The notes beneath the pieces are model-generated. The model saw nothing but the letters and a program-made list of their open reading frames with translations, did not search any database and was not told the origin of the DNA. Below are positions 3 to 6,984 of a stretch of 48,715 nt of DNA, one piece after another (the stretch's first letter is position 1; each line of letters starts with the position of its first letter). The stretch is from Roseomonas sp. (lineage in GTDB: Bacteria; Pseudomonadota; Alphaproteobacteria; Acetobacterales; Acetobacteraceae). The position numbers and the translations under genes were made by a program. The DNA lies in contig JADCFP010000129.1 of assembly GCA_020249465.1 (NCBI GenBank), positions 1 to 48,715 of the forward strand, given 5' to 3'.

Positions 3-1481
3 CTGGAACGTCTGCGTGCCGAACCCGCCGATGAGGAAGTCCAGAAAATTCTGGAAACGCTCGCGACCCGCAATGGTGAATTGACGGATGTGGCCGATGC
101 CCGCCCGGCTACCAAGGGTGAGGTGATGGTGTGCGATTTTGCTGGCTCCGTCGTGCCGGATTTGCTGACCAATGGCCCGGCCCTTGGCGCCGTGCCCGGC
201 ATTCCGGGCCAGGCGCCCCGCGGTTGGGAGATTGCGCTTTCGGGTGGCCTGAAGTCCGAAATCGCTTCCATCGGCACCGAAGAAGCGCTGCCCTATTTCG
301 ATCTGCGCGTCAGCGGCACGGCGAGCGAAGCCGGCTGGGTTCAGGTATTCCTGGAAGGGCCGAAGGGCATTGCCGCGGCGCCGGGTGCTACGCAAAGCCT
401 GATGGTCAGCACCAAACTGGCTGGTGGCAGCCTGCCGGAAGGCACCCAGGGCAAGCTTGGCTTCAATTTCTACAGCCTGCGCGCCGATGGCGTCGATTTC
501 CTGGATATGCAGCGCGATGCCTTTGACGTGGCGGCCGGGCGCAGCACGCTTGCCTTCACCTTCCCCAATCAGGCGGAAATCGGCGCCTGCCGTCCCTTCA
601 TCTATCTGCACGGCATGCCGGCGGGTGCTGCGGTGGAATTCACGCTGCGCATTGGGCCTGCGCGGTTGATCGCGGGCACAGAAGAACCGGCCCTTGCCCC
701 CTTCGCGGGTGGTTCAGCCACCGATATGCCTATCGAAGTGGGTGGCCCCGGCTTCATCCCGGGCTTCACCGAACAGATGGAAGGGCTTTCCGTCGGCGAC
801 AGCCGCGATATCCAGGTGGTGTTTCCGCTGGATTATGGTTCGGCAGACTTGGCGGGGAAGCGTGCTGTCTTCTCCATTACGGCGAAGAAGCTGCAGCAGC
901 GCGTGCCGCGCGCCATTGATGATGAATTGGCAAAAACCGTGGGCCAGGCGGACCTTGCCGCCCTACAGGCACAGGTGAAGGAAGGCCTGCAGCGCGAATA
1001 TGACGCCATGGCGCGCATGCGCCTGAAGCGCGCCCTTTTGGACAAGCTTGCCGATCAGGCGAGCTTCCCCGTGCCGGAAGGCATGGTGGAGGGTGAATTC
1101 AGCCAAATCTGGCAGCGCGTGGAAGCCGATTTGAAGGCTGGGCGGCTTGATTCCGATGACGCCGGCAAGGATGAGGCGACGCTGCGCGACGAATATCGCG
1201 GCATCGCCCAGCGGCGCATCCGGCTTGGCCTGCTGCTTTCTGAAATTGGCCGCAGCAACAACATCCAGGTGACACCGGATGAGCTGAGCCGTGCGCTTCG
1301 CCAGGAAGCGTCACGCTACCGTGGCCAGGAACAGCAGGTGATCGAATTCTTCCGCAAGAACCCGGAAGCGATGGAAAACCTCCGCGCCCCGATTTTTGAG
1401 GAAAAGGTCGTGGATTTCATTCTGGAATTGGCCAAGGTGGCCGAGCGCCAGGTGAAGCCTGAGGAATTGTCGGAAGCCTGA
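3..1481 (+). CDS. tig: Trigger factor (ribosome-associated chaperone/PPIase), 5'-truncated, with an inserted domain
   Basis: Trigger factor binds the ribosome exit tunnel and folds nascent chains in the cytosol. The frame is open from the window edge, so the N-terminal ribosome-binding domain (about 110 residues in E. coli) lies outside. A TTG at 81 is internal to the gene, not its start. Counting residues from codon 81, the PPIase domain begins with VMVCDFAGSV (15-24). It is interrupted by about 180 residues (roughly 25-206) and resumes at PFAGGSATDM, GFIPGFTEQMEG and the FPLDYG strand (207-283). The C-terminal chaperone domain follows (about 284-466) with LLLSEIGRSNNI and IEFFRKNPEAMENLR, both typical of the family. 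The insert sits in the loop that normally reads DFxGxVDGxxFxGG. Reading frame and codon use are continuous across it. No clpP follows; a strong terminator does. Identity of the host protein is very secure. The nature of the insert (phage-structural-like beta domain) is inference. Confidence 0.93.
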   Translation: MERLRAEPADEEVQKILETLATRNGELTDVADARPATKGEVMVCDFAGSVVPDLLTNGPALGAVPGIPGQAPRGWEIALSGGLKSEIASIGTEEALPYFDLRVSGTASEAGWVQVFLEGPKGIAAAPGATQSLMVSTKLAGGSLPEGTQGKLGFNFYSLRADGVDFLDMQRDAFDVAAGRSTLAFTFPNQAEIGACRPFIYLHGMPAGAAVEFTLRIGPARLIAGTEEPALAPFAGGSATDMPIEVGGPGFIPGFTEQMEGLSVGDSRDIQVVFPLDYGSADLAGKRAVFSITAKKLQQRVPRAIDDELAKTVGQADLAALQAQVKEGLQREYDAMARMRLKRALLDKLADQASFPVPEGMVEGEFSQIWQRVEADLKAGRLDSDDAGKDEATLRDEYRGIAQRRIRLGLLLSEIGRSNNIQVTPDELSRALRQEASRYRGQEQQVIEFFRKNPEAMENLRAPIFEEKVVDFILELAKVAERQVKPEELSEA

Positions 1482-4495: not shown

Positions 4496-5722
4496 ATGCA
4501 GGTTTCACGTCGTAGTGTTTTAGCCGGAGCGGCCGCGACCGGCGCCCTGCCGCTCTCTCTTGCGCGCGCGCAGGCAACGAACACCGTTCGCATCGGTGTC
4601 ATGACCGACATGTCCGGCATGTATCGTGACAATACCGGCCCGACTTCGGTTGCCGCCGCGCGTGAAGCCGCGTCGGAATTCGGCGCGAGCCACGGCTTCC
4701 GGGTGGAAATCATCGAAGCCGATCACCAGAACCGCCCGGATGTCGGCGTCAATCTGGCGCGGCAATGGTATGATCAGGGCGTGGACCTGATCATTGATGT
4801 GCCCACCTCCTCCGTGGGGTTGGCCGTTTCCAATGTCGCGCGTGAAAAGAACAAGGCCTATATCAATGTCGGTTCAGCCACCGCTGACCTGACGGGCGCG
4901 CAATGCAGCCCGAATACGATCCATTGGGCCTATGATACCTTCATGCTTGCGCGTTCCACCGGTGGGGCGACGGTGCGCGCGGGCGGCGATTCGTGGTTCT
5001 TCATCACCGCCGATTACGCCTTTGGCCACGCGCTTGAACGCGATACCTCGAATTTTGTGCGTGCGGCTGGCGGGCGTATTATTGGTCAGGTTCGCACTCC
5101 CTTCCCGGGCACGACGGATTTCTCCTCCTTCCTCGTGCAGGCGCAGGCCTCCCGCGCGAAGGTGATTGGCCTCGCCAATGCGGGCGCGGATACGCAGAAT
5201 TGCGTGAAGCAGGCGGCGGAATTCGGGCTCACGCGGCGCGGCATCAAGCTTGCCTCCTTGCTGCTTTTTGTGAATGACGTCCATGGCCTTGGGCTGCAAA
5301 CGGCGCAGGGGCTGGTTTGCACCGAAAGCTTCTATTGGGATCTGAATGACAAGACCCGCGCCTGGACGGAACGCATGCTGCGGCGCGTTCCGACCAATTA
5401 TCCGAACATGATCCATGCTGGCTGCTATTCCGGCACGCTGCACTTCCTGAAGACCGTGGCGGCGATGGGTGTCCCGGCGGCCAAGGCTTCCGGCCTTGAT
5501 CTCGTGAACCGGATGAAGGCGCAGCCTTCCGAGGATGATCTCTATGGCAAGGCCACCATCCGCCCGGATGGCCGGCGCCTGATTCCTTCCTACCTGTTTG
5601 AGGTGAAGACGCCGGCCGAAAGCAGGAAGCCCTGGGATTACTACAAGCTGCTGCAGACGACGCCCGCCGAGGAAGCCTTCCGCCCGATTGGTGAAGGCGG
5701 CTGCGCGCTCGTGCGTTCGTGA
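4496..5722 (+). CDS. ABC transporter substrate-binding protein, HAAT type, tandem copy 2
   Basis: Second of three tandem periplasmic binding proteins, 408 residues. It starts MQVSRRSVLAG (Tat-like RR) and has a short signal ending near LARAQA. GAGGGAG lies about 8 nt before the ATG. The central GGDSWFFITADYAFGHALERD and DFSSFLVQAQASRAKVIGLANAGADT blocks match copy 1 almost exactly. The segments between residues about 300 and 360, and the replacement of TWMCAKSTGG by TFMLARSTGG, differ. The gap from copy 1 is 33 nt. Conservation of the core with divergence elsewhere suggests duplication followed by ligand drift, but specificity cannot be read from sequence alone. Confidence 0.92.
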   Translation: MQVSRRSVLAGAAATGALPLSLARAQATNTVRIGVMTDMSGMYRDNTGPTSVAAAREAASEFGASHGFRVEIIEADHQNRPDVGVNLARQWYDQGVDLIIDVPTSSVGLAVSNVAREKNKAYINVGSATADLTGAQCSPNTIHWAYDTFMLARSTGGATVRAGGDSWFFITADYAFGHALERDTSNFVRAAGGRIIGQVRTPFPGTTDFSSFLVQAQASRAKVIGLANAGADTQNCVKQAAEFGLTRRGIKLASLLLFVNDVHGLGLQTAQGLVCTESFYWDLNDKTRAWTERMLRRVPTNYPNMIHAGCYSGTLHFLKTVAAMGVPAAKASGLDLVNRMKAQPSEDDLYGKATIRPDGRRLIPSYLFEVKTPAESRKPWDYYKLLQTTPAEEAFRPIGEGGCALVRS

Positions 5723-5748: not shown

Positions 5749-6984
5749 ATGACAACAACAAGGCGTAGTGTTCTTGGGGGTGCCGCCGTTGGCGGTACCG
5801 CTCTTGGTGGCTTGCCATGGCGTTCTGCCCGCGCGCAGGCGGCGAATACCATTCGTATCGGTGTGCTGAACGACATGTCCGGCCCGTATCGCGATATCAG
5901 CGGTCCCTATGGGCTGGAATGCACGCGCCAGGCCGTGCAGGAATTCGGCAATCGCGGCTTCAATGTTGAAGTCATCAACGCCGATCACCAGAACCGCCCA
6001 GATATCGGCGTGAATATCGCGCGCCAATGGTATGACCAGGGCGTTGATATGATTATTGACGTGCCGACATCTTCGGTTGGTCTCGCTGTCGCCAATATTG
6101 CGCGGGAAAAAAACAAGGTCTGTGTGAATACCGGTTCTGCAACGTCGGACCTGACGGGGCCGGCCTGCACGCCCAATACCGTGCATTGGATGTACGATAC
6201 CTACATGCTGGCGAAATCCACTGGCGGTGCGATGGTGCGCGCGGGTGGCGATAGCTGGTTCTTCATCACCGCCGATTACGCCTTCGGCCATGCTTTGGAA
6301 CGCGATACCGCGAATTTCGTGCGCAATGCCGGTGGCCGCGTGATGGGGCAGGTGCGCTATCCCTTCCCGGCAACGACTGACTTTTCCTCCTTCCTGGTGC
6401 AGGCGCAGGCTTCCCGCGCCAAGGTGATCGGCATGGCCAATGCCGGTGCCGATACCATCAACACCGTGAAGCAGGCGGCCGAGTTTGGCATTACGCGCCG
6501 TGGCGTGAAGCTTGCCGCGCTGCTGATGTTCCTGCCGGATGTGCATGCGCTTGGCCTGCAAACGGCGCAGGGGCTGATCCTGACGGAAAGCTTCTATTGG
6601 GATTTGAATGACCGCACCCGCGCCATTTCCGAAAGGCTGCGCCCGAGGCTGCGTGATGTGCGGCCCAATATGGCGTCCATCGCCAATTACTCTGGGGCGC
6701 TGCATTACCTGAAGGCCATTGCCGATATGGGGGTCGCTGCTTCAAAGGCTTCAGGCGCAGAAGTGGTTGCGCGCATGAAGTCCATTCCTTGTGATGATGA
6801 CGCCTTTGGCCCTGGCACCATCCGCGCCGATGGGCGCAAGCTTTGCCCTTCCTATTTGTTTGAAGTGAAGGCGCCATCCGAAAGCCGTGGGCCTTTTGAC
6901 TACTACAAGCTGCTGCAAACCACGCCGGCAGAGGAAGCCTTCCGCCCGATGAATGAGGGCAATTGCCCCATGATCCGGGCCTGA
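5749..6984 (+). CDS. ABC transporter substrate-binding protein, HAAT type, tandem copy 3
   Basis: Third tandem binding protein, 411 residues, starting MTTTRRSVLGG with a Tat-like double arginine and a signal ending near ARAQA. A GAGGAAGG ribosome-binding site precedes the ATG, and the gap from copy 2 is 26 nt. It differs from the other copies by VRYPFPATTDF (others PFPGTTDF), IGMANAGADTINTVKQ and the C-terminus NEGNCPMIRA. An intercistronic hairpin (7018-7035) separates it from the permease genes. That is a common way to keep abundant binding-protein mRNA while lowering permease expression, though here this is inference. Confidence 0.92.
   Translation: MTTTRRSVLGGAAVGGTALGGLPWRSARAQAANTIRIGVLNDMSGPYRDISGPYGLECTRQAVQEFGNRGFNVEVINADHQNRPDIGVNIARQWYDQGVDMIIDVPTSSVGLAVANIAREKNKVCVNTGSATSDLTGPACTPNTVHWMYDTYMLAKSTGGAMVRAGGDSWFFITADYAFGHALERDTANFVRNAGGRVMGQVRYPFPATTDFSSFLVQAQASRAKVIGMANAGADTINTVKQAAEFGITRRGVKLAALLMFLPDVHALGLQTAQGLILTESFYWDLNDRTRAISERLRPRLRDVRPNMASIANYSGALHYLKAIADMGVAASKASGAEVVARMKSIPCDDDAFGPGTIRADGRKLCPSYLFEVKAPSESRGPFDYYKLLQTTPAEEAFRPMNEGNCPMIRA

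Follow-up and report, generated by a model that had tools for sequence, protein, structure and literature searches.

Few bacterial chaperones are as well conserved or as thoroughly studied as trigger factor (TF), and the TF encoded in the window analysed here (48,715 nucleotides, the entire contig C34 of a Roseomonas sp. genome assembled in 162 contigs) contains an additional stretch of domain size within its peptidyl-prolyl isomerase (PPIase) fold. This locus raises the question of what that stretch is, where it came from and what it may do beside the isomerase.

A folded domain occupies a short loop of the window trigger factor

The tig frame of the window (Table 1) matches TIGR00115 at 6.3e-72 (242.7 bits for the truncated protein against a curated cut-off of 180.2), Trigger_C at 2.8e-37 and FKBP_C at 3.2e-08. 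It shares with the TFs of TIGR00115 the domain order, the GFRxGxxP signature, the PPIase-pocket motifs and the C-terminal chaperone domain, and differs from them by a 183-residue beta-sandwich in the first hairpin loop of the PPIase domain. A first-pass annotation of this DNA had suggested codon 81 as the start of the gene; because the TF is truncated at the contig edge and its missing N-terminal part (TIGR00115 positions 1–101) is carried by the end of another contig of this assembly, C150, codon 81 is not the gene start. The central claim of that annotation, an insert of ~180 residues within the PPIase fold, was borne out: the frame reads VCDFAGS, then 183 residues, then PFAGGSATDMPIEVGGPGFIPGFTEQ, and the inserted stretch falls exactly where aligned insert-less relatives have a short loop (GRIGGEEFQGG or GRLIGEDGTPGEPFPGG at the break point). 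The loop is likewise short in Roseococcus, Rubritepida, Crenalkalicoccus, Siccirubricoccus and Dankookia, with a gap measure of 11–19 residues. By alignment the insert lies between DFxG and FxGG and not in the FKBP flap loop, a position that corresponds to the first hairpin loop in the topology of FKBP12. The frame is open throughout with unchanged codon use, as first described, third-position GC being 0.743 in the insert and 0.725 in the C part of the gene.

Table 1 Features of the window discussed in the text
Feature	Position	Strand	Basis or remark
Trigger factor gene (tig)	3..1481	+	492 codons plus stop, single open frame; 5' end lost at contig edge
Last part of N-terminal/linker region and first part of PPIase domain, as far as DFAGS	3..149	+	Alignment against insert-less TFs
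Insert of 183 codons in first hairpin loop of FKBP-type PPIase domain; predicted CBM-like beta-sandwich, phage-tail-related	150..698	+	Boundaries, fold, relatives, selection
Remaining PPIase domain (PFAGG ... GFIPGF ... DYGS ...) and linker to C-terminal domain	699..953	+	FKBP_C match; pocket motifs
C-terminal chaperone domain (Trigger_C)	954..1427	+	Profile match
Periplasmic binding protein, first of tandem	3134-4462		Matches Peripla_BP_6 at 2.4e-95
Periplasmic binding protein, second of tandem	4496-5722		
Periplasmic binding protein, third of tandem	5749-6984		

Structure prediction gave a confident model of the insert as a beta-sandwich of the type found in carbohydrate-binding modules (CBMs), with CBM4, CBM16 and CBM22 as the nearest solved folds. 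Together with the phage-tail-type relatives described below, this folded model upholds the earlier description of a CBM-like beta-sandwich domain akin to phage-tail domains; a disordered loop, considered as the alternative structure, is ruled out by it. The model of the full TF includes a flexible, low-confidence linker at 182–191. The insert alone matched nothing in PHROGs, NCBIfam or Pfam, CBM models included; the gathering score of CBM_4_9 (PF02018) was not reached by the window insert, and the best of 16 phage-type domains attained E 0.0063 (one domain). Searched against the sequences of solved structures, TF inserts alone gave a best E of 0.23, and a phage-type profile gave one match, 5e7t_B (Minor structural protein 5) at 6.5e-4, presumably the Tuc2009 tripod entry, chain BppA. 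Domain 1 of BppA is likened to CBMs in the accessible part of PMC7291167. Positions of the insert that are conserved across genera are mostly those common to the phage domains and look structural, and this comparison of TF inserts found no ligand site.

The insert is carried throughout the genus

The same insert was found in 32 of 34 same-genus relatives, always within the TF frame. The two relatives lacking an insert match, G009 (no TF match) and G026 (TF positions 1–87 only), are uninformative, so that no genus genome with a readable site is without the insert (33 of 33 carry it, window genome included). One insert-bearing relative, G010, is a single-contig 5.5-Mb genome, and a separate genome scan found the insert in named isolates, among them Roseomonas rubea, R. 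rosulenta, Neoroseomonas alba and N. lacus, a set that probably overlaps with the relatives. The window does start at a contig edge within the gene, as an assembly or annotation artefact might; against this stand the 32 relatives, the single-contig genome among them, and the separate finds in N. lacus and N. alba, which leave a practically negligible chance that an artefact explains the insert. A chimeric assembly, raised at first pass, is ruled out by the same relatives and isolates. Nor is the insert particular to one strain: a search of other TFs, proposed with the first annotation, was positive in these relatives and in other genera of the family, with the insert genus-wide here, patchy elsewhere in the family and present also in second TF copies.

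The insert is related to domains of phage tail proteins

Outside TF, the nearest relatives found were proteins of phage-tail type, one of them a Mu gp48-type protein encoded by the genome that contains the window. Weaker matches to the insert in the same genome and a sister genome comprise four gp48-type proteins, all of which match Phage_Mu_Gp48 (Pfam) at ≤2.1e-22 and are called baseplate wedge subunit by PHROGs; in the window genome, the neighbours of gp48 (gpP, gp45, baseplate J) mark a Mu-like tail module. Relatives of gp48 in Bordetella and Alteromonadaceae phages match only the two ends of the protein, with gaps too short for the domain, which therefore sits mid-gp48. The Mu gp48/phrog_203 tail proteins thus resemble the window TF in carrying a homologous domain mid-protein, in the same genome, and differ from it as virion proteins with a TRAAD-type motif after the domain that is absent from TF inserts. 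The domain also occurs in tail protein 49 of Azospirillum phage Cd and in 42 IMG/VR loci (from 2 of 4 scans; the other 2 confirmed none), and a PHROG scan of eight tail-type proteins of the family assigned six to phrog_5939 or phrog_1419 (tail), one to baseplate wedge and one to none.

Profile comparisons tie the two groups together. A TF-insert profile aligned with 16 phage-type domains at 99.8% in hhalign (E 3e-29, 164 columns), and profile A7, built from 16 phage-tail-type domains, matched 59 of 60 TF inserts at E≤1e-3 and none of 1200 shuffled inserts (0/1200). The sole miss, the G293 insert (E 7), was matched by the TF-insert profile at 4.2e-4 and by another TF insert at 2.8e-14. The set of 60 leaves out the window's own insert and includes four second-TF inserts with hand-set boundaries. 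Direct tail evidence exists for 12 of the 16 domains in A7 (four gp48, phage Cd and seven with a PHROG tail or baseplate assignment); the others are L112, without a PHROG match, and L105, L107 and L113, which lay outside the PHROG scan. Residue-by-residue reading of L098–L114 identified 2 TFs, the other 15 being taken as tail-type, and several further matches later turned out to be TFs; the search that yielded L098–L114 scored 8 first-look candidates per genome and can miss copies. Two motifs, N..NP.xEGA.xGTPGT.PT.W and TLR.G, are common to TF inserts and tail-type proteins, and the G224 insert, from another genus, starts NLLSNPGVEGAVAGEPGTLPTGF, near the phage motif N.IRNPR.EGA.AGTPGT.PT.W. 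Direct searches with the window insert returned phage Cd alone among phage records (two records, 3e-3), four Azospirillum records alone among plasmids (9e-3) and no confirmed relative among viral contigs, where one phage-type query likewise found none. Taken together, the profile matches show homology between the insert and domains of phage tail/baseplate proteins, and we hold the identity of the domain, taken alone, with high confidence. The phage-type origin first proposed for the grafted domain therefore holds, on the matches of A7 to inserts as against shuffles and on the gp48 domain in the window's own genome.

Within the gp48-type protein of the window genome (L079 4247-5611, G000:C6) the domain begins with an imperfect internal repeat (NPWFEFAVPGTPGTRHPWFEFPVPGTPGT), which is missing from three gp48 relatives in G033. 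The gp48-type domain on two IMG/VR contigs (L218, L219) shares 95% identity with the one in the sister species' L080 (G033:C284), which makes it probable that a phage of this lineage bearing the domain is in circulation.

Insert-bearing trigger factors are patchy across the family

A TF match was obtained in 372 of 397 family genomes, and in at least 28 of these 372 a long insert interrupts the main TF at the site: 13 of 13 genomes of the window genus in the sample and 15 in seven other genera (three each in g28, g41, g53 and g88, one each in g30, g40 and g61). Family genomes outside the window genus were re-searched where at least two matches appeared. Other species of g28, g40, g41 and g61 lack the insert, a patchiness that provides natural pairs of sister species with and without it. 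The insert's absence from most family TFs and its patchy presence within genera imply that it is dispensable over longer times. Gap lengths at the site are two-peaked, at 11–24 residues in 52 and 160–195 residues in 56 of 108 frames. Insert-less loops near insert-bearing lineages are often 16–24 residues long and share flanks with inserts, as in G365 (insert-less, GRLVDESAEGGLSEPFPGG) and G260 (insert starting GRLVEGG and ending GEAGGLSEPFPGG); such shared flanks would suit loss by deletion or insertion into an already long loop. Flanks in g40 and g61 differ with insert state (GRLV... versus GKIDG or GTLEG/GTLDG), which would suit transfer of the region. In G285 the TF is in two pieces, on C285 and C221 (positions 1–159 and 175–410), the second starting at a contig end near the site; this break possibly hides another insert that the assembler failed to cross.

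A wider search of the class gave a TF match in 201 of 210 genomes (three of the 210 from the family); outside the family, no TF with a long insert at the site appeared among the matches listed, and re-searching 14 suspect class genomes revealed no insert-split TF. No paper on such a TF insert was present among the matches listed in the open-licence PMC literature. What is new here is that the insert occupies this TF loop in seven other genera as well, in 15 or more main TFs, and also in 13 second TFs.

Trees bear on the origin and number of captures

On a tree of the TF core (90 TFs, insert columns removed, second TFs included), insert presence changes state at least eight times. Of 110 TF frames this tree uses 90, the 20 omitted being near-copies, fragments or surplus rows, and its deep part is unreliable because the second TFs are long-branched. 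A quick tree of the domain itself separates 43 TF inserts from 46 phage-type domains, with a support of 99 with flanks and 80 on trimmed columns (43 of 60 TF inserts after dropping 17 g1 main-TF rows; 46 of 59 phage-type domains after dropping 13 that were >85% identical). Two placements that would disrupt this separation were nevertheless not rejected by the AU test: the g88 inserts with the viral domain L251 (p-AU 0.65) and the g53 inserts with L111 (p-AU 0.86), both with a likelihood above that of the free quick tree; these partners were picked after viewing BLAST results. Constraining all phage rows to group with g88, g53 or g1 gave results that suit single and multiple capture alike and carry no weight here. 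The domain tree thus favours a single origin of the TF inserts, and these placements (p-AU 0.65 and 0.86) limit what it says about the number of captures.

From the wider spread of the domain among tail proteins we infer a direction from phage to TF, the trees themselves being unrooted. That lack of a root would also suit a cellular CBM acquired independently by phages and by TF, with no phage-to-TF transfer, as would the frequency of CBMs with this fold in cellular enzymes; since the non-TF relatives examined are tail-type and share the common motifs given above, and since no Pfam CBM model matches the window insert, we regard this route as highly improbable. Transfer from phage being preferred, the TF loop could, as a tentative and rather speculative extension, be a recurrent landing site for phage-adhesion domains, with capture possibly repeated, moves between genera and second TFs that are phage-derived and lectin-like. 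If so, some Acetobacteraceae cells would have a pair of ribosome-type chaperones, of which one would owe its specialisation to a lectin-like domain of phage descent.

Adhesion modules within the loops of other domains are known from virions: in the accessible part of PMC7291167, the 'evolved Dits' of siphophages carry CBMs in loops of the distal tail protein. The window TF resembles them in having a phage-adhesion CBM-like module within a loop of another domain, and differs in that theirs is a virion protein and the host here a cellular housekeeping chaperone.

Divergent second trigger factors retain the insert

Thirteen second, divergent TFs carry the insert. Five belong to species of the window genus and are 46–51% identical to the window TF after the insert; Trigger_N and Trigger_C are present in the four of the five that were scanned, and all five (5/5) have GFRxGxxP together with an altered GFIPGF and tyrosine. 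The eight others, in g28, g41, g53, g72 and g120, show GFRxGxxP in none of the six (0/6) present in the motif table (L169 is gapped there). In seven genomes (G184, G364, G409, G209, G360, G394 and G153) an insert-bearing second TF accompanies a main TF without insert, and in G086 both bear it. Retention of the insert in second TFs whose other parts have drifted suggests that it may matter to their task. A counter-example is the TF-like second copy of G105, which has neither PPIase domain nor insert. This copy (L170, G105:C117) is embedded in a much longer open frame.

According to the accessible part of PMC11559001, a single ribosome-binding TF is the rule in nearly all bacteria, and among 390 multi-TF genomes 23 encode more than one TF with the ribosome-binding motif; the words Acetobacter, Rhodospirill and insertion are absent from its main text. 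The five genus species with a motif-bearing second TF would be further exceptions to the one-ribosome-binding-TF rule as stated there.

Selection, conserved motifs and the likely role of the insert

Median dN/dS, by the Nei–Gojobori method, is 0.080 in the insert versus 0.047 in the TF C part, a ratio of ~1.7 (13 close genomes, 78 pairs, the pairs being non-independent); by this measure the insert is under purifying selection. The motifs DFxG and GFIPGF and the tyrosine, which contain the pocket residues by comparison with FKBP12, are kept in 32 of 32 genus main TFs, and 15 main TFs of other genera nearly keep the pocket motifs (GFIPGF in 12, NFIPGF in 3). The ribosome signature GFRxGxxP, as defined in the accessible part of PMC11559001, is present in 31 of 31 readable genus orthologues, a count that excludes the window's own N part on C150. 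With signature and pocket retained, ribosome binding and prolyl isomerisation should both persist in the insert-bearing TF. In E. coli TF, the PPIase head sits away from the N-terminal ribosome-binding domain; since the site lies in this head, of the two places suggested earlier for a binding surface, the nascent-chain side fits better and the vicinity of the exit tunnel is less probable.

The account that we favour by a small measure, on the analogy of SlyD, is that the phage-tail-type insert assists the neighbouring isomerase by binding clients or a partner. The housekeeping TF of a Roseomonas/Neoroseomonas-like lineage would have received, in the first PPIase hairpin loop, a copy of a domain from a tail gene of a (pro)phage; as a tethered accessory binding domain adjoining the isomerase pocket, it would hold clients or one specific partner and pass them to the isomerase, like the insert-in-flap (IF) domain of SlyD, and in some relatives a second TF would be specialised for the insert-borne job. 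In the accessible part of PMC11013033, the FKBP-loop domain of SlyD binds clients and hands them to the isomerase, and IF-type domains grafted into FKBP12 strongly raise its folding activity. The SlyD/SlpA IF FKBPs likewise have a foreign domain in an FKBP loop near the active site (PMC11013033); theirs lies in the flap and has ~65 residues, whereas here an unrelated CBM-like domain of ~180 residues lies in the first hairpin of a TF, between DFxG and FxGG, and so outside the SlyD-type flap-loop position. A genus-wide TF with a phage adhesion-type domain by its isomerase pocket is nature's parallel to the engineered FKBP12-IF chimeras, and would exemplify the uptake of a virion module by the protein-folding machinery.

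There is some chance, if a minor one, that the insert is instead a tolerated passenger, captured from phage, folding by itself and doing nothing specific in a loop that tolerates a domain. Its patchiness within genera, the state changes on the core tree, the flexible linker of the full model and a dN/dS ~1.7 times that of the C part all agree with this; the purifying selection implied by a median of 0.08, the presence in all 33 readable genus genomes and the retention by 13 second TFs, several without pocket motifs, argue against it. That the insert binds sugars, so that the TF recognises glycosylated or glycan-bound clients in the manner of the lectin-type chaperones calnexin and calreticulin, we consider quite unlikely: a common fold proves no function, conservation between the TF inserts of different genera is sparse outside the shared structural motif, and TF is cytoplasmic, a compartment expected to be poor in glycans. 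In its favour are the CBM4, CBM16 and CBM22 folds nearest to the model and the phage-domain profile's match to 5e7t_B (6.5e-4), taken with the CBM-like domain 1 of BppA (PMC7291167, accessible part).

The presence of the same domain in the Mu-like gp48 of the window's own genome, and of two viral contigs 95% identical to the gp48 domain of the sister species, would accord with an interplay in which the TF-borne domain aids or disturbs the assembly of tails that carry the homologous domain. The odds of such an interplay, and of any role connected with homologous phage tails, are slim, because the domain is confined to TF genes in 24 of 33 genus genomes (E≤1e-3) and non-TF copies are as common without a main-TF insert: in the g28 and g41 genomes searched, such copies, counted by search match, occur in 5 of 6 with a main-TF insert and 10 of 11 without, with no association.

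Downstream of tig, the window has two ABC ATPase genes followed by a tandem of three similar genes for periplasmic binding proteins of branched-chain amino-acid type (Table 1); binding-protein genes also lie downstream of tig in L036 and L054.
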